This document shows, one piece after another, positions 12,100 to 21,433 of a DNA stretch of 21,433 nt (its first letter is position 1; each line of letters starts with the position of its first letter). The DNA is taken from the IMG/VR virus record IMGVR_UViG_3300045116_000070, positions 1 to 21,433 of that record; one strand, written 5' to 3'. A program made the position numbers and the translations under genes. The notes under the pieces were generated by a model. The model had not been told where the DNA came from and did no database searches. It saw nothing but the letters and a program-made list of their open reading frames with translations. This DNA comes from a virus.

Positions 12100-12801
12100 G
12101 TGAGTCTCCTTTCCTCTGGCCCCGTCCTGTGGACCTTGCGCCGGGGTGTGCGCTGCCGCAGCCGCCCTTGCCGACGCCGACTGCGGCGTCTCGGTCTGCG
12201 AGTCCGATTCGGTGCGAGTCTTTGCGTTCGGGTCCGCCCCGATGACGCACAAGCTGTTTTCGACCGGCTGCCATTCGGTCGTGACGCGGAGGGCGCAGTC
12301 CTTCGGCGCCGTGAACGTGCGTCCGTTCACCGTCGCCGTGGCCCCCGGCTCCACCTGGACCGATTTCAACACGCGGTATCCGATGCTGTTGTCCGTGACG
12401 TGCTTGTCACGGACTTTGTCGCCGGCCTCCTTGGAGTCCTGATCGGCGGCGAAGCAGTTGCGCGCAACCAGTTGGCCGCTCTCGATCCGAAGTTCCCGGC
12501 TGCTGCCGTACACGTTGCGGATGGTGCTCCGGTTGTGCGTGTCGATGAGGGGAATCTGCCGGTTGTCGGGCAGCCGGCAACCGTCCATCAAGAGCACTTC
12601 CTGAATCATCTCCCACGTGCGCATGTCGAAGACGGACACCGGCGCTTCGGTGGCGATGACGGCCTCGACGGAGCGCGTCCCTTCGTTCCACGTCTCCGCG
12701 TTGACGCGGTAGGCGCGGACCGTGATGTCGCGGTGTTGATCGTCGTTCGCCGAGCGCGCGCACACGTCCCACGGCTGATGCTGGATGCTGCTATCACGCA
12801 T
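10624..12801 (-). CDS. Fused prohead protease, scaffold and major capsid protein
   Basis: This 725-residue protein begins at the ATG at 12801, which overlaps the portal stop, with AAGGAG upstream. Residues 1 to about 200 look like a prohead protease: IDTHNR with His89 and DNSIGYRV with Ser139 are candidate catalytic residues. A charged, proline-rich helical part (about 235-350) resembles a scaffold. From about 350 the sequence resembles the Mu-type major head subunit, including a TTADFGNILADV segment, LINDD and ALFHADH. One polypeptide therefore seems to combine maturation protease, scaffold and shell. A second in-frame start at codon 235 has an excellent ribosome binding site and probably makes a 491-residue scaffold-capsid product without the protease. 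Capsid protein would then be made in excess of protease. Confidence 0.88.
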   Translation of the reverse strand: MRDSSIQHQPWDVCARSANDDQHRDITVRAYRVNAETWNEGTRSVEAVIATEAPVSVFDMRTWEMIQEVLLMDGCRLPDNRQIPLIDTHNRSTIRNVYGSSRELRIESGQLVARNCFAADQDSKEAGDKVRDKHVTDNSIGYRVLKSVQVEPGATATVNGRTFTAPKDCALRVTTEWQPVENSLCVIGADPNAKTRTESDSQTETPQSASARAAAAAHTPAQGPQDGARGKETHMSFSAWLEARGLKEADLTETQRAALKADFDAFTAAQRTPPAPPPAPPANDTGRAEAVAQERRRIAEINEVARQHPEATPEMVSAAVTDGRSVDAFRAAVLEAIRMARPQTPAAPSVHDGQAPVERAHITAALCLRAGMSDTALVNAKHFTAPQMEQAYRMRSISLLQVAHEACRMAGRPLGRFVSDDELIQRASTTADFGNILADVANKAALTALAQTPSTAQRWCGERSVKDFKTLKLVRLTDVAAPEAINANGELKHGQIGDIGESLAVDTQGLVIGIGRKTLINDDMQMLTSVPQRMVMAQLLALDSGLYAAMIGNPTMEEDSKALFHADHANIQGSSGRKWFLAASPMMADHMIIGYLNGVKTPKVERIEENGAYLGVRIRMYFDFGYAAAGWRGIVEGLGTLDATSLSAARTLLARQTDAKGSKLALAPKFLIVAPEDEFTARQLVTSSTLLTVTGANATLTNTGTANPISAWNLEVIPTPFIAAS

Positions 12802-14401
12802 GGGCGGTCTCCTTCTTCTTCTGCGCCCCGGTCGATTCCTCTTCCTGCGCGGCTTCGTTCGCGGGCCGGTTGAGCGCCTTCTCGATGTCCGTCGTCTGGA
12901 TGTCGAGGGCCTTCATCAGCCGCTTCTCGCGGGCGATCTGGCGGAAGAGCCGCCGGTAGTCGATGCCTTCCCGGGCGCACTCGCGCGCGTAGCTCGTCAT
13001 GCGGTTTCCGAGCGCCATGCCCTGCGCCTGCCGCTCCTTCAGGATTTCCACGTAGCGCGCGCTGTCCCAGTAGTAGGTCGTCTCCACGCGCGCGCTCGCC
13101 GGGAACCGGCGCGGCAGATAGCCCGGCAGAAGTTCCGCTTCGCGGCGCCATTCGGTGAAGAGCCGGTCCCCCAGTTGAATGCTCCCCCACTCCTGGATTG
13201 CGCCGATGAACCGCCCGTAGACCTGATGGTCCAGCCGCCCGCTGGCGAAGTTGTAGCCGGCGCTGTTCCCGATGCCGATGTTGAAGGGCATGGAAATGCA
13301 GCGGAGCACTTCGCCCATGATGCAGTCCCGGAACATCTGGAAGGTCGTCTGCGGCTGTTCGCTCTTGAACCCCGCCGACTTGTAGCCGGGCGGCGCGACG
13401 GTGACGGACCCGCGCTTCAGCGTGGTCGAGGAGAGCGGGGCGATGTCGTAGGGAAGGGCCTGCTCGCTGTACGTTTCCAGCAGGACCGCCATGTCCGCGC
13501 CCTTCTCCGCCGCGTCGATGACGGCCAGCGTGAACCGGCGCAGGTAGGCGAGGAGTTCCAGCGCGGGCGACAGCCACGGGTAGGAGCGCGACTGTCCGGG
13601 GAAGGGCGTCACGCCGAGATAGATCACCGCGGAAGCCGGGACCTTCTCGTAGGCGTTGGGGTCGGTGTAGTTGACGGCGGACCCCGGATGATGCTTCAGG
13701 ATGTAGTAGAAGAGCGGAATCCCGTCGCCGTCGAACTCGATGCCGCCGTTCAGGTACGTCTCGTAGTTTTGGCCGTTGCGCTTGGCGAATCCGTCCGTCA
13801 TTCCCCACGGCGTCATCAGCCGTTGCGGCGCCACGGACAGCAGGCGCAGCTTGACGGGGTAGTCGGCCGTCCGAGAGCGCGGGCTTACCGACTTCAGCAC
13901 GCCCAGGTATTCCCCGTCGACGCACATCTGGATGATGATGTCGTTGATGATCTGCGCGAACGTCTTCTTTCCGCTCGCGTCGGCGATGGCGCACCACTCC
14001 TCGAACCTCTGCTCGTAGCCGTCGCCGATGGAAGGCGTCGGGGTTTCGACCTCGTCGTCGCCGGCGTCGATCTGCGCCTCGTCATTGACGATCACCATCG
14101 GCCCCGTGCCGGACACGTCGCGCGCCAGCGTGTCCACGATGCCCTTGACGTAGCTGTTGTTGTGGTACTCCGCCGCCGTGTTCTTGCGCAGGGTGTCCAG
14201 GTCCGGGATGATGCGGCTGTCGGCGTCGAGGGACCCGTACAATCCCCAGTGGTTGCGGTTCGTGGGTCCGCTCGCGGCGGCGTCGAAATACGCGCGCCCC
14301 GGACGGTCGCCGATAAAATCCCCGATGGGGCGCGGTTCCAGCGCGGGCTGCGCGCCCCGGAGCGCGTTCCATGCAGCGGCGAACCTGTTGCGGGCGCTCA
14401 T
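12794..14401 (-). CDS. Portal protein, lambda gpB-like
   Basis: This 535-residue protein is almost exactly the length of lambda gpB. It would form the dodecameric ring at one capsid vertex through which DNA is packaged and ejected. It sits between a gpW-like gene and the protease-capsid gene, the lambda order W-B-C. The N-terminal region (SARNRFAAAWNALRGA, then PDLDTLRKNTAAEYHNNSYVKGIVD) is typical of this portal family, where an early segment describes residues with repeated contacts to a neighbouring subunit. The C-terminal 30 residues are charged and probably disordered. The start ATG at 14401 overlaps the preceding stop (ATGA). Confidence 0.92.
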   Translation of the reverse strand: MSARNRFAAAWNALRGAQPALEPRPIGDFIGDRPGRAYFDAAASGPTNRNHWGLYGSLDADSRIIPDLDTLRKNTAAEYHNNSYVKGIVDTLARDVSGTGPMVIVNDEAQIDAGDDEVETPTPSIGDGYEQRFEEWCAIADASGKKTFAQIINDIIIQMCVDGEYLGVLKSVSPRSRTADYPVKLRLLSVAPQRLMTPWGMTDGFAKRNGQNYETYLNGGIEFDGDGIPLFYYILKHHPGSAVNYTDPNAYEKVPASAVIYLGVTPFPGQSRSYPWLSPALELLAYLRRFTLAVIDAAEKGADMAVLLETYSEQALPYDIAPLSSTTLKRGSVTVAPPGYKSAGFKSEQPQTTFQMFRDCIMGEVLRCISMPFNIGIGNSAGYNFASGRLDHQVYGRFIGAIQEWGSIQLGDRLFTEWRREAELLPGYLPRRFPASARVETTYYWDSARYVEILKERQAQGMALGNRMTSYARECAREGIDYRRLFRQIAREKRLMKALDIQTTDIEKALNRPANEAAQEEESTGAQKKKETAHA

Positions 14402-14622
14402 CCGCGCGGCCCTCCGTTTTCGATCTGCGCGAACTGCATGGAGTTCCCGCCAAGCGCCGCCGATGCCTGCAACTGGACGTAGTATTGGCGCGCGCGAATG
14501 AGGTCGTTCAGGGTCCGGTAGACCGTCTTCTTGCCGTTATTGTCGATCTCGACGGGCTGCCCGGCCCATACGAGAATCGCGGCGTCGATGGCGTCGATGA
14601 TGTCCTGATAGTCCGTTGCCAT
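14398..14622 (-). CDS. Head-tail joining protein, gpW-like
   Basis: This 74-residue protein (MATDYQDIIDAIDAAILVW...) lies directly before the portal gene and after the terminase genes, the place of lambda W. The two-helix pattern with an intervening strand pair (KKTVYRTLNDLIRARQYY) and the length fit gpW, which plugs the filled head and provides the tail docking surface. The ATG at 14622 is chosen. A TTG at 14634 would also be in frame, but it lies inside the T tract of the terminator just upstream. No strong ribosome binding site precedes the ATG, which may keep expression low or make it dependent on read-through. Confidence 0.75.
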   Translation of the reverse strand: MATDYQDIIDAIDAAILVWAGQPVEIDNNGKKTVYRTLNDLIRARQYYVQLQASAALGGNSMQFAQIENGGPRG

Positions 14623-14631
14623 GTCCAGCGC

Positions 14632-14676
14632 CAAACAAAAGACGACTGATCGAAGGATCGGCTCCGATCAGTCGTC
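14632..14676 (-). terminator. Intrinsic terminator upstream of gpW
   Basis: Arms GACGACTGATCG (14641-14652) and CGATCAGTCGTC (14665-14676) form a perfect 12-bp stem with a 12-base loop. On the minus strand the stem is followed by TTTTGTTTG. The loop and one arm can also form a smaller alternative hairpin (GATCG/CGATC), so the structure could switch. It ends only ten bases before the gpW start, so transcripts coming from the terminase side or from the promoter at 14741-14769 should stop here unless antiterminated. Confidence 0.85.
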
Positions 14677-14734
14677 CTGTCCGGCGTCGTTCGCGACGGG
14701 GGCCATTCCGCCACGCTGCGCGCCCTTGCGTCCT
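14677..14734 (-). ncRNA. Short leader between promoter and terminator
   Basis: If transcription starts about seven bases after the -10 hexamer, near 14734, and stops in the T tract near 14632, a transcript of about 100 bases would be made before gpW. It has no convincing reading frame with a ribosome binding site. It may be only an attenuated leader, like the terminated transcript from the lambda late promoter, or a small RNA. The exact ends are inferred. Confidence 0.35.
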
Positions 14735-14740
14735 GTGCGG

Positions 14741-14769
14741 AGAATACCCGCACTTTGCTGGCACGTCAA
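14741..14769 (-). promoter_or_regulatory. Sigma-70-type promoter for head genes
   Basis: On the minus strand there is TTGACG (14764-14769), a 17-base spacer, and TATTCT (14741-14746). This is close to the bacterial consensus and stands out in a GC-rich genome. It points toward gpW, portal and capsid, with an intrinsic terminator about 65 bases downstream of the -10 box. Palindromes lie 17 to 66 bases upstream of the -35 box. Confidence 0.7.
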
Positions 14770-14785
14770 GTCGATCACCGCAGAT

Positions 14786-14803
14786 TGTTCCACCGGTGGA
14801 ACA
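14786..14803. promoter_or_regulatory. 18-bp perfect palindrome upstream of promoter
   Basis: TGTTCCACCGGTGGAACA is perfectly symmetric over 18 bp. Its centre lies about 60 bases before the predicted transcription start, where an activator could act. It has the form TGT-N12-ACA, which as I recall is the pattern bound by the P2/P4 Ogr/Delta activators. Its half-sites also equal those of a bacterial parS site separated by two extra bases. Confidence 0.7.
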
Positions 14804-14821: not shown

Positions 14822-14835
14822 GTTTCACGTGGAAC
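14822..14835. promoter_or_regulatory. parS-like motif
   Basis: GTTTCACGTGGAAC has the CACGTG centre and 14-bp core typical of the bacterial ParB-binding parS site, which is usually written TGTTTCACGTGAAACA. The outermost bases differ here. Its centre is 34 bases from the centre of the 18-bp palindrome. It could recruit a host ParB protein, or it could be a regulator half of the cluster that resembles parS by chance. Confidence 0.5.
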
Positions 14836-14856: not shown

Positions 14857-15192
14857 CTACAGCCGCTCCTCGACGGTCTGGTACTTGTGGCCGCAGTGCG
14901 CGCAGACTCGCTGCCGCTCCCGGACGTCCGGCTTGTTGCGGACATAGTAGACCGATGACAGCCGGCCCGAGCACTTCGGGCAGCGGATGCCCACGCCGTT
15001 CGGGTTCTCGGCGGCGTCCGCGAGTTCCTGCAGCGTGACAAACCGCTTGGGGGTCTCTCGTGGCGCGGACGGTTGCGGCGGCGGTTTCGGCGCCGGGGCG
15101 GACGGCGGCGCCGATTCCGCGAGTTCGCGCATGAGGTCGTCGGCCCCCTGCTCTGCGGGCGGCGTGGGTGCGGCGGTCTTTCGTCTGGCCAT
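14857..15192 (-). CDS. Zinc-ribbon protein, Ogr/Delta-like possible late activator
   Basis: This 111-residue protein has a disordered, proline-rich first half and a C-terminal zinc ribbon with C71/C74 and C97/C100, containing RQRVCAHCGHKYQTVEE. That pattern resembles the Ogr/Delta family of phage late transcription activators and also the N-terminal ribbon of NrdR-type repressors, so DNA binding is likely. The ATG at 15192 starts one base after the large terminase stop; an in-frame TTG further upstream lies inside the terminase gene. The stop is followed by the control region with palindromes and a promoter, so it may regulate the head genes directly. Residues 52-59 (VTLQELAD) repeat a motif at the end of the large terminase. 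Confidence 0.72.
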   Translation of the reverse strand: MARRKTAAPTPPAEQGADDLMRELAESAPPSAPAPKPPPQPSAPRETPKRFVTLQELADAAENPNGVGIRCPKCSGRLSSVYYVRNKPDVRERQRVCAHCGHKYQTVEERL

Positions 15193-15193
15193 G

Positions 15194-17185
15194 TCATTGT
15201 GCCTTGTCTGCAAGTTCCTGTAGCGTCACCGTGCGCCCCCCTACCAGAGCGTTCCATCGTCGCGCGGCCGTCTCGATGCTCTGTCCGGCTACGAGCACCT
15301 CCAAGGCGGCGCGCGCGTTCATCGTCGCGTCAAGGAAGTGGTTCTGCGCGGTCTCGGCGTCTTCCTCTTCCGCTTTGCGCTTCTGGACGAAGTAGCTTTC
15401 AAGCCGGCCCGTGCGCGCGTTCCGTCGCGTGACGATCTTCTCCGAGTTCAACTGACCGAGGATGATCTGATCGGCGTCGACCGGAACGCGCGCGGACCCG
15501 CTCGACAGGGCGTCGTAGAGTTCCCGCTTGATGAGTCCCGTGTTGACGGACCGGAGCACGATTCCGCCCGGCAGCGCGCGCCCGCTCGGCGTCTTGTCAA
15601 CGCGCGTCGCCGTGAGCACGTATTCCTCCATGCCCTCCGGGACGCGGATGTCGCCCCGGCGTCCCTTCATCGGCCACAGCCAGCGCAACTGACGGCACCA
15701 GCCGTAGACATCCTCCGCCTTGTAGCCGGTGTCGATGCCCGCGGCGACGATCATCAGCTTCCGGTCCCCGCCCACGAAGGGCAGCGGGCGCAGTTCCGAA
15801 ATCCAGCGCATCGCCTCGTCGGGGTTCGCCTCCATGTCCACCTTGTGGATATCCCATGCTATCAACCACGCCTCGCGCTCCGCCGCCGATGCCCCGCCCC
15901 ACCCCCACACCACGTAGTGAATCTCCGTCTTCCGCACGTCAAAGCCCGCCGTCACGATCAGGGCCCCATCCGGGAGCGTGTTCCGCCGGTATCCCCCCTG
16001 CCGCTGCGCCATCTCCTTCAGCACGGCCACGGACACCGAATCGCGCCCGTACTCCTCCTCTTCCCACGGCCACGCCAGGTACCCGTTCACGAACGCCTTG
16101 TACGGCTCCGTGTACTTGTGGACCCGGATGTACCGGGCCGCGATCTCGCCCCACGTGCAGGACTCCCCCAACAGCGAGTAGAGCGACGACAGATGAAAGC
16201 CGATGGCGACCCCGCCGGGGTTGGGACTCACCCATTCGCCGGCCTCCACCATCGCGCGCTTCGCGTGTTGCGGTATCTCCTTGTCGCACTTCTCGCAGAG
16301 GTACGTCGCCTTCCACGTGATGTCGCGGATGGCGCAGTCGCGCGGCCACCGAATCCTGTCCGGGTGCATCGGCTGGCAATGTCCGCACAGCGGGCACGGC
16401 ACGTGGAAGAAGTGGACCGACGTGCTGCTCGCGGGCTTCCAGCGCCGCACGGGCAGCCGCAGGCCCGGCGCCGCGCCCTTGTCCGCCGTCTGGTACTTGT
16501 CCTCTTCCGCGTGATCGCGCGCCAGCCCCAACCCCGTCCACATGTTATCTTTCGGGTGCAAGGGACTGCTCGCCTCGATGATCTTCCGCCCGAAGAAGTT
16601 CTTCGCCCGGTCGTCCACGGCCGCATTGATCTCCGCCTCCAGGTCCTTCGTCTCGTCCTTCAGGATGTACCGCTCCGGGTGCGACGAGACGGACGCCATC
16701 GAGTTCCACGCGAACCGCACCGTCATGCGGTCCAGCGTGTACTGCAGGAGTTGGAAGTCATCCGCCTTGGACGTCCTGTGGCACCGAAGACTTTCGCAGT
16801 CGTCAAAGAGCCGTTGCCAGCGGTCCTTGCTCACTTCCTTGGCCACGTGCTGCGTCGGGTAGACCAGCATCAGCGGCCCCGGCGAGTAGTCCACGATGAA
16901 GTTGAAGATCGCCATCTCCAAGGTCGTCTTCCCCGTCTGCGTCCCGAAGCACGCGAACAAGTGAACGACGCGCGGGTCCGAGAACATCCGCAACGGGCCG
17001 CGCAAGTAGGGCGTGTGGCCGAAGTCAATCAGCCCGTGAATGGCGCTGGTGCGTTCGGACAGGTACAGAGTGCGTTCCGCGTGCTCGTCAATCGTCATGC
17101 TCGGCGGAGGGCGCAGCGCATTCCAGAACGCCTGGCGGATCGTCCGCAGGTTGTTCAGCGCCTCAATGGCGTGGGGTGCTATCAT
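15194..17185 (-). CDS. terL: Terminase large subunit, GpA family
   Basis: This 663-residue protein is the DNA-packaging motor and the nuclease that cuts concatemers. The N-terminal ATPase shows a Walker A-like GTQTGKTT (about residues 81-88) and a Walker B-like YILKDETKD with the acidic pair near 177-178. A zinc-binding insertion follows, with CPLC (about 263-266) and CEKC (about 296-299). The nuclease domain begins near TAGFDV, with candidate metal-binding aspartates at about 415, 484 and 618. Length and order agree with lambda gpA (641 residues), although the ATP-binding loop is more canonical here. The start overlaps the small subunit stop (ATGA). The last residues contain VTLQELADKAQ, which is echoed in the next gene. 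Confidence 0.95.
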   Translation of the reverse strand: MIAPHAIEALNNLRTIRQAFWNALRPPPSMTIDEHAERTLYLSERTSAIHGLIDFGHTPYLRGPLRMFSDPRVVHLFACFGTQTGKTTLEMAIFNFIVDYSPGPLMLVYPTQHVAKEVSKDRWQRLFDDCESLRCHRTSKADDFQLLQYTLDRMTVRFAWNSMASVSSHPERYILKDETKDLEAEINAAVDDRAKNFFGRKIIEASSPLHPKDNMWTGLGLARDHAEEDKYQTADKGAAPGLRLPVRRWKPASSTSVHFFHVPCPLCGHCQPMHPDRIRWPRDCAIRDITWKATYLCEKCDKEIPQHAKRAMVEAGEWVSPNPGGVAIGFHLSSLYSLLGESCTWGEIAARYIRVHKYTEPYKAFVNGYLAWPWEEEEYGRDSVSVAVLKEMAQRQGGYRRNTLPDGALIVTAGFDVRKTEIHYVVWGWGGASAAEREAWLIAWDIHKVDMEANPDEAMRWISELRPLPFVGGDRKLMIVAAGIDTGYKAEDVYGWCRQLRWLWPMKGRRGDIRVPEGMEEYVLTATRVDKTPSGRALPGGIVLRSVNTGLIKRELYDALSSGSARVPVDADQIILGQLNSEKIVTRRNARTGRLESYFVQKRKAEEEDAETAQNHFLDATMNARAALEVLVAGQSIETAARRWNALVGGRTVTLQELADKAQ

Positions 17186-17781: not shown

Positions 17782-17940
17782 CACCATACGTCACGAAACG
17801 ACGCAACCGAACGCGACCGACCGTTGCGGAACACGACCGGAAGATGCTATAAACAGCCTTGCAGCAAGGGTATAAGTGGTAACACGCGCCCTCGCATCGC
17901 TTTATGACCTCACAGGTTCCAGACGCCCAAAAAGGATTAG

Positions 17941-17980
17941 AAATCCACCGGTCGGGGGTTCGACTCCTCCCTGGCGCGCC
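17941..17980 (+). other. tRNA 3'-end fragment, likely attachment core
   Basis: The T arm is complete: stem GGGGG (17954-17958), loop TTCGACT (17959-17965) and stem CCTCC (17966-17970) with one G-T pair. It is followed by an acceptor strand CTGGCGC, discriminator G and CC. The 3' end GGCGCGCC resembles several bacterial tRNA-Arg genes. There is no D arm and no convincing 5' half upstream, so this is a fragment and not a working tRNA. Such fragments restore the host tRNA gene when a phage integrates. The exact core limits and tRNA identity cannot be fixed here. Confidence 0.75.
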
Positions 17981-17983
17981 TCG

Positions 17984-18025
17984 CAAAGGACGGCATGGTC
18001 ATGGGTTACGATCATGCCGTCTTTG
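17984..18025 (-). terminator. Hairpin overlapping the end of int
   Basis: GACGGCATG (17989-17997) and CATGCCGTC (18013-18021) are perfectly complementary, and the stem extends with CAAA/TTTG beyond a bulged G. The right arm overlaps the int stop codon. After the hairpin the minus strand has only a short run of T, so termination may be partial. It could stop int transcription before it crosses the attachment core, or limit int mRNA lifetime. Confidence 0.55.
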
Positions 18026-19962: not shown

Positions 19963-21228
19963 TCATCTTGGCTCCGACGATCTGCGGGCTGGCCCATGTG
20001 CGCCGCCACTGTTTGGGACCTCCACTGCTGCCATCAACTTTTCGAACGGCACTTTCTGTTCGGCGTCGGGAGCGTCGGGATTGACGCCGGCGGCGCGGCA
20101 CTTCTCGCGCCAGCGCAGACGCGCTCCGAGCATTTCGGTCATCGATACGCGCTGCCCGTCGTCGGGTGGCCGCTCCGGCGGCTTCGGCGGTTCCAGCGCT
20201 TTGGTGCGCTGCTGGATGCGCTGGAAGTGCCAGTGGCGGAAGGATGCCTTGAGTTTGCCGTTGTTCGGAGGGGTGTCCGGGGTGGCCTTGTCGCGGAGGA
20301 AGGCGCTGACGTAGCCGTCGACGTCCGTGACGCCTGGCAGGCCGGCGTGGGTGAAGTCCTGCGGGGTCCAGGTGCGGCAGGTATTGGAGAGTTGCAGAAG
20401 TTGCGCGACGCCGCTGCGGACGGGTTCCCACGGCGAAACGCCCCATCCGGTGGCTTCGGCGCAGAGAATCTCGGTCGGGGTGGCGTCGGCGGGGTAGATG
20501 AGGGACGGTGACCGCGGCGCAGTGGCGGACGGTTGTGCGGATGACGGCGCAGCGGGCGTGGCGGGCGCGGGCGGCTGGGGTCGCTGTCCAGCGCCAGCTT
20601 TCGGTCCGGACGCCTCTGGCGCGGACTCTGTGCCGTTGTTTGCCGTTTCAGGCGAAGCCGAAGGGGGAGAGGGGGGCGCGTTCGTCTCGCGCGCGCGTTT
20701 TTCTGTTCTCTCTCTCTCTTGTCTTGTCTTGTCTTGTTCTGTTAATGTAGGCGCGATTTCTTCGCGGAACAATCGCGCTGTCGTCGCGGACGCGGCGCGG
20801 CGTCGGCGCGGAGATTTCGCGGTGCTATGTCCGTGCGGCGCATAGACTTGCTTCCATAAGCGGCGGCTGATGGTGGCCGGATGCTGGTCGAACTCAACCG
20901 ACTGCACCCACTTGAGCACGTCGGTCAAAACGGTCATTCCGCGCGTAATTTCGGATACATTCCATCGCGAAAGCGCGGCGATTGTGTCCACCGTGAGCGG
21001 TTGCGGGTCGCTCTCGTCGGTCAACAGGAGTCCCCGAAACGGGCTTAGGGCTGCCATGCCGCGGACGATCTCCCACGTGGCCAGGGCGGCGGTCGCGTCC
21101 GGGTGGCGCGAGAGCGTGTACCAAGCCGCGCCGGCGAAGTCCACCTTCGCCTTTATCCAGCGGATCCGGTTCATCGGCATTTCCCGGTGTTCGTGGTAGG
21201 GCCAGTTGACGATGTAGTAGACCTTCAC
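19963..21228 (-). CDS. Replisome-organizer-like replication protein
   Basis: This 421-residue protein starts at GTG 21228, which overlaps the stop of the preceding gene (GTGA) with GGGAGGA upstream. Residues about 20-112 resemble the N-terminal winged-helix domain of phage replisome organizers (FRGLLLTDE, then LTVDTIAALSRWNVSEITRGMTVL). A long, low-complexity linker of charged and alanine/proline-rich sequence follows (about 125-260). A C-terminal helical domain (about 265-385) may load host helicase. It would start phage DNA replication by binding the origin. A tandem short repeat at 20707-20737 lies in the linker. The assignment is by fold-level pattern, not by strong motif. Confidence 0.65.
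   Translation of the reverse strand: MKVYYIVNWPYHEHREMPMNRIRWIKAKVDFAGAAWYTLSRHPDATAALATWEIVRGMAALSPFRGLLLTDESDPQPLTVDTIAALSRWNVSEITRGMTVLTDVLKWVQSVEFDQHPATISRRLWKQVYAPHGHSTAKSPRRRRAASATTARLFREEIAPTLTEQDKTRQERERTEKRARETNAPPSPPSASPETANNGTESAPEASGPKAGAGQRPQPPAPATPAAPSSAQPSATAPRSPSLIYPADATPTEILCAEATGWGVSPWEPVRSGVAQLLQLSNTCRTWTPQDFTHAGLPGVTDVDGYVSAFLRDKATPDTPPNNGKLKASFRHWHFQRIQQRTKALEPPKPPERPPDDGQRVSMTEMLGARLRWREKCRAAGVNPDAPDAEQKVPFEKLMAAVEVPNSGGAHGPARRSSEPR
20707..20737. repeat. Short tandem repeats in replication gene linker
   Basis: On the plus strand six TC units (20707-20718) run into four CTTGT units (20718-20737). Neither unit is a multiple of three, so a gain or loss of one unit would shift the frame of the replication gene and cut off its C-terminal domain. 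Confidence 0.85.
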
Positions 21229-21428
21229 GCGCGTCCTCCCTTCGTGTTCATGCGGCGTTTTCGCGCGGCGGCGCGCATGTTCTGGGCCAACTTGAACCAC
21301 ATCACGTTGCGGCGCCGGCGTTGGGCGAGTTGGCGCGGCGTGGCCCGGGGCGGAGCCGCGCCTGCGTTGATCGGATGGAAGTCGGGGCAGGCTTTCCGGT
21401 CGGCATCCGCCAGCCGATACCCGCTCAT
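21225..21428 (-). CDS. Small basic protein, unknown function
   Basis: This 67-residue protein is rich in arginine and lysine (RQLAQRRRRNVMWF and RAAARKRRMNTKG), which suggests nucleic acid binding. The ATG at 21428 lies five bases from the window edge, so an upstream start or a ribosome binding site cannot be checked. It is joined to the replication gene by a GTGA overlap. No family was recognised. Confidence 0.5.
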   Translation of the reverse strand: MSGYRLADADRKACPDFHPINAGAAPPRATPRQLAQRRRRNVMWFKLAQNMRAAARKRRMNTKGGRA

Positions 21429-21433
21429 GGGAA

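Follow-up and report, generated by a model that had tools for sequence, protein, structure and literature searches.

The 234-nt gap between a zinc-ribbon (Zn-ribbon) ORF and the gpW-like head gene of a 21,433-base virus record (the window, meaning the whole stretch of DNA analysed) carries a predicted promoter, a leader and an intrinsic terminator. We judge the chances to be about even that this gap is the control region of the head operon, in which the Zn-ribbon protein would load onto polymerase and permit read-through of the leader terminator. A similar layout is found in very distant phages, and the arrangement points to an apparently undescribed late-gene switch. Such switches are known in detail for only a few phages. 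The candidate described here would combine, within about 600 bp, a tiny zinc protein, a DNA site specific to that protein and a leader terminator, and the module recurs in many uncultured phages.

The genes of the window run in the order integrase, small terminase, GpA terminase, Zn-ribbon ORF, gap, gpW-like gene, portal and protease/capsid fusion. Those discussed here lie on the minus strand, and the gap is the only long one between terminase and gpW. The relevant genes are as follows.

15194..17185, minus strand: GpA large terminase gene (Pfam GpA_ATPase, E 3e-40; GpA_nuclease, E 4e-36)
14857..15192, minus strand: Zn-ribbon ORF, 111 aa, CX2CX22CX2C, candidate regulator (Pfam, hhalign)
14398..14622, minus strand: gpW-like head gene, between terminase and portal (weak NCBIfam head-tail joining match, E 0.022)
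12794..14401, minus strand: portal gene (Pfam Phage_portal_2, E 9e-47)

The Zn-ribbon ORF matches the NrdR-type Zn ribbon of Pfam with an E value of 1.5e-5, a match that falls short of the cut-off. Its match to the Ogr_Delta profile (E 0.11; 12.9 bits against a cut-off of 26.3) is far too weak, and the cysteines are arranged as CX2CX22CX2C instead of CX2CX22CX4C. The first-pass annotation had proposed a search for a Q-like antiterminator elsewhere in the genome, and no Q homologue was recognized. Specifically, profile searches gave no Q family match for either the Zn-ribbon ORF or a 190-aa ORF, and the AlphaFold model of the latter has a pLDDT of 45, too low to judge a Q fold. The best candidate for a regulator is the adjacent Zn-ribbon ORF, which might act as a DNA-loaded antiterminator in the manner of Q or AlpA, or as an Ogr-like activator.

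In several named relatives the terminase, gpW and portal genes abut, so that the Zn-ribbon ORF and the control region seem to have been added in the window. Close relatives of the portal, terminase and Zn-ribbon were limited to a single near-identical contig among viral contigs, and there were none among genome contigs. Because this contig is 99.9% identical over 7.8 kb, with zero differences in the control region, it adds nothing on conservation. The closest terminase relatives (L016 and L098, 36-37% identity) have a gene with a ParB-like domain directly after the terminase, in the place taken by the Zn-ribbon ORF in the window. Their portal was undetectable, so neither provides an intermediate case.

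Within the gap, the promoter, the hairpins and the T tract are all on the strand of the head genes.

14741..14769, minus strand: promoter TTGACG-17-TATTCT (rank 1 in the window; 1/1000 gap shuffles)
14692..14715, minus strand: leader hairpin H1, with loop AAUGGCCC (by folding; aligned by covariance model R1 with H1 of the relatives)
14629..14686, minus strand: outer stem CGCCGGACA / TGTTTGGCG, enclosing the terminator hairpin and T tract (by folding)
14640..14677, minus strand: intrinsic-terminator hairpin (folding energy, window scan, gap shuffles)
14633..14640, minus strand: T tract TTTTGTTT of the terminator

A near-consensus promoter had been noticed here at first reading, and this claim is borne out by a scan of both strands, in which the site (-35 at 14769-14764, a spacer of 17 nt, -10 at 14746-14741) has the highest sigma70-like score of the whole window under the promoter rules of E. 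coli. The hairpin reported with it, described as a perfect stem of 12 bp followed by a T tract, is present together with its T tract; the stem is in fact longer and less perfect, comprising 15-16 bp with one G-U pair. Its folding energy is -24 to -26 kcal/mol (z = -5.0), and it is the best combination of hairpin and T tract in the window, matched by 3/1000 shuffles of the gap. The spacing given earlier, about 65 bases from the promoter and ten from gpW, also holds, as the stem begins 63 nt past the -10 element and some ten bases separate the end of the T tract from the gpW ATG (14622). The Shine-Dalgarno sequence of gpW is weak relative to those of most other genes in the window. No convincing tRNA or Rfam RNA was found at the site.

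The coincidence of the best promoter and the best terminator of the window in one gap argues for a control region of the head operon. It is very improbable that the promoter is a chance match lying beside a terminator whose sole role is to close the terminase unit. An equal or better promoter score does arise 0.35 times per shuffled whole window; on the other hand, it arises in only one of 1000 shuffles of the gap, and none of the 1000 is as good in both features jointly. Moreover, the space between the hairpin and the ATG is too short to hold another promoter for gpW, and the layout recurs in distant phages.

The first-pass annotation further suggested that a small hairpin in the loop could make the terminator switchable. 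We rejected a two-state terminator of this kind because the alternative fold of the apex is 11.6 kcal/mol less stable than the main fold, and thus the small hairpin is not a thermodynamic switch. The apical palindrome may nevertheless matter in some other way, as a palindrome of 10-12 bp is present at the terminator apex in all of at least 33 related elements described below.

Two palindromes are located upstream of the promoter.

14786..14803, no strand assigned: 18-bp perfect palindrome TGTTCCACCGGTGGAACA, candidate operator (longest perfect palindrome of the window)
14822..14835, no strand assigned: parS-like palindrome GTTTCACGTGGAAC, possible second operator

The centre of TGTTCCACCGGTGGAACA is 25.5 bp upstream of the first base of the -35 element. 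A palindrome of this quality occurred in 5/5000 gap shuffles, and the sequence was not found elsewhere in the window. One other match was listed for it in IMG/VR; this lies in an unrelated gene region and was taken as chance. The palindrome can be read as TGT-N12-ACA, like the Ogr dyad site, a resemblance that was noticed post hoc. The second palindrome resembles parS and sits in a phage intergenic region, where a host ParB could bind.

Among 79 GpA-terminase loci that were surveyed, a few very distant phages have a strong hairpin and T tract directly before gpW, in the order terminase, Zn-ribbon ORF, conserved motif, promoter, leader, terminator, gpW and portal. A DNA-pattern scan of IMG/VR for the outer stem of the terminator, which was independent of the promoter motif, brought the set to at least 33 distinct elements, and the terminases sampled from these relatives are only 28-30% identical. 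In 30 of the elements a Zn-ribbon ORF stops about 100 nt upstream, and in 32 a recognized gpW follows. The module in these relatives consists of a Zn-ribbon gene, a palindromic operator, a promoter, a two-hairpin leader ending in a terminator, and gpW. Neither the leader element nor its Zn-ribbon matched a known phage in the libraries searched, and we found no description of such a module among open-access papers.

The terminator stems of the relatives covary, with 98.8% of cells paired and a covariation score of 0.38 compared to 0.16 in shuffles. The outer stem CCCAATA/TATTGGG is invariant because the search patterns required it, and was not counted as evidence. In H1 the loop core TGATCA or TGGCC is kept, and the stem varies. 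The H1 loops and terminator apices are all self-complementary despite their varied sequence (for example in L197, L028, L256 and L285), a pattern that would suit the formation of kissing dimers by the RNA or the binding of a dimer to the DNA. The leader element occurs once per contig in 12/12 contigs of 10-51 kb, if weak reverse-strand echoes at its own position are disregarded. The operator pattern also occurs once in 10/12 of these contigs; the other two have a 3-nt spacer that the pattern used could not match.

There would be little reason to keep a strong terminator behind its own promoter in all of these elements unless it is overcome or yields a useful RNA. The latter possibility, in which promoter and terminator produce a trans-acting small RNA of about 100 nt while the head genes are expressed through leakage or from upstream, seems improbable to us. 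It would suit the compact unit of promoter, hairpin and terminator, as well as the pair of hairpins that the relatives have, whose loops are self-complementary, but it does not explain why the unit invariably follows the Zn-ribbon gene and immediately precedes gpW, and there is no Rfam match.

The operator of the relatives is a 17-bp imperfect palindrome with the pattern T[AGT]GTA[AC]-CGAC, centred 16-17 bp upstream of the -35 element in the cases that were parsed. At least six of its eight positions are paired in 19/32 parsed relatives, compared to 0.5% of background windows. Its sequence follows the type of Zn-ribbon finger. The half-site TAGTAA accompanies CYS[ST]-, CYGSH- and CYATY-type fingers, TGGTAA accompanies CYKTD and CYASR fingers, and TTGTAC accompanies the CYAHR finger; a single exception (L238, finger WYVSH) has an odd operator site. 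In trees built for 26 phages, three changes of operator class are required on the Zn-ribbon tree and six on the gpW tree. Three phages (L186, L285 and L300) have a common gpW type and terminator together with three different finger/operator pairs, and these natural swaps of protein and operator make both specificity and antitermination testable with short reporter constructs. This tracking is evidence for binding of the operator by the Zn-ribbon protein rather than proof of it, and the adjacency of gene and operator could account for part of the linkage and thereby mimic co-evolution. It also bears on the prospect that the palindromes are sites for host proteins such as ParB that tune the promoter, with the Zn-ribbon gene incidental. 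The resemblance of GTTTCACGTGGAAC to parS fits such a role, which we nonetheless consider hardly credible, as the parS-like palindrome is found in the window only and the operators of the relatives are different and track the Zn-ribbon type.

The window shares with the relatives a Zn-ribbon gene directly upstream and a gpW gene directly downstream, the latter with a weak match to the gpW profile of the relatives (E 8e-4). Its Zn-ribbon aligns with their Zn-ribbon profile in hhalign over 38 columns (prob 91, E 1e-6). Covariance model R1, which was built without the window, finds its best window match at 14720-14629; this match is full length and weak (12.5 bits, E 0.22). A second covariance model, likewise built without the window, has its best window match there too, also at full length, and scores lower still (10.0 bits, E about 1). 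The operator of the relatives is not found at 16-17 bp, as the window palindrome differs in sequence and is centred farther upstream. Membership is thus suggested by the layout, the similarity of the Zn-ribbons and a covariance match that is weak and the best in the window. Given the weak covariance scores and the differing operator, we call the window a divergent case built like the module of the relatives, for which homology is likely rather than established.

In the mechanism that we propose, the dedicated promoter would start a leader RNA of about 100 nt, which would fold into H1 and then into the intrinsic terminator. By default, most transcripts, including any from the terminase genes, would end there as a short RNA. 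The Zn-ribbon protein would bind the palindrome or palindromes in front of the -35 element and, once loaded onto polymerase, enable it to read through the terminator in the manner of lambda Q and AlpA. Like P2 Ogr, the protein may in addition stimulate initiation. The retention of a terminator downstream of the promoter favours antitermination. Several observations count against this reading for the window, including the weak model hits, an operator that differs from that of the relatives in sequence and distance (25 versus 17 bp), and the lack of an intermediate phage joining the two. The position of the operator upstream of the -35 element likewise speaks against loading in the manner of Q or AlpA, whose sites are between -35 and -10.

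The likeness to lambda pR'/tR' that was remarked upon at first reading is supported. The head genes are immediately preceded by a promoter and its promoter-proximal terminator, and distant phages repeat this layout in front of gpW, with a regulator-like gene immediately upstream. In lambda, the order is regulator gene, late promoter, promoter-proximal terminator and late genes (PMC6266700). Gene order and occurrence once per genome are the same here, the regulator gene is immediately upstream as Q is in lambdoid phages, and, judged by sequence, so is the intrinsic terminator before the late genes. However, the candidate regulator is an unrelated small Zn-ribbon, its operator lies upstream of the -35 element, and the head genes come first here whereas lysis genes come first in lambda. 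HK022 put RNA offers a further parallel, as it is an RNA hairpin between promoter and terminator in a phage leader; here a single hairpin precedes the terminator. In Pseudomonas aeruginosa, the promoter-bound non-Q protein AlpA carries polymerase past a terminator just before its target genes (PMC7969949). In the arrangement proposed here, a regulator would likewise be bound to DNA at a promoter whose intrinsic terminator immediately precedes the target gene, although AlpA is a predicted winged-helix protein.

P2 Ogr and P4 Delta are also small phage C4 zinc proteins, with a dyad site upstream of late promoters (PMC3931495). The window palindrome fits the TGT-N12-ACA form of this site and the sites of the relatives do not. 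P2 has several late promoters compared to the single head promoter here. To our knowledge, no leader terminator accompanies the late promoters of P2. These likenesses bring in an account with activation only, in which initiation is stimulated by the Zn-ribbon protein, the terminator serves as a leaky insulator against terminase transcripts, and no antitermination occurs. We regard this account as rather doubtful. Operators upstream of the -35 element lie where an activator sits and favour it, as do the form of the window palindrome and the closeness of CX2CX22CX2C to Ogr's CX2CX22CX4C (PMC3931495), from which it differs in the spacing of the second half. The natural place for an insulator, however, is upstream of the promoter, and here the terminator is downstream, where a strong one would steadily lower head-gene expression; the Ogr_Delta match is also far below the cut-off. 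The sequence by itself is compatible with antitermination as well as with activated initiation combined with a leaky terminator. Tentatively, small phage Zn-ribbons might constitute a new class of DNA-loaded antiterminators, each with its own palindrome, a single head promoter and a leader terminator with self-complementary loops.

Other features were observed beyond the head genes. The near-identical contig (L100, 1-8086, compared with window 20676-21433) diverges inside a putative replication gene, consistent with mosaic exchange, and its early genes, read by eye, resemble those for SSB, a Rad52-like protein, an ASCH protein and a DNA methyltransferase. Beside the integrase gene, positions 17915-17990 of the window resemble the anticodon-to-T-arm part of a tRNA gene and are likely attP; ARAGORN detected no complete tRNA in this interval. 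Finally, a strong plus-strand hairpin with TTTGCCTTT is present at 18021, over the 3' end of the integrase gene.
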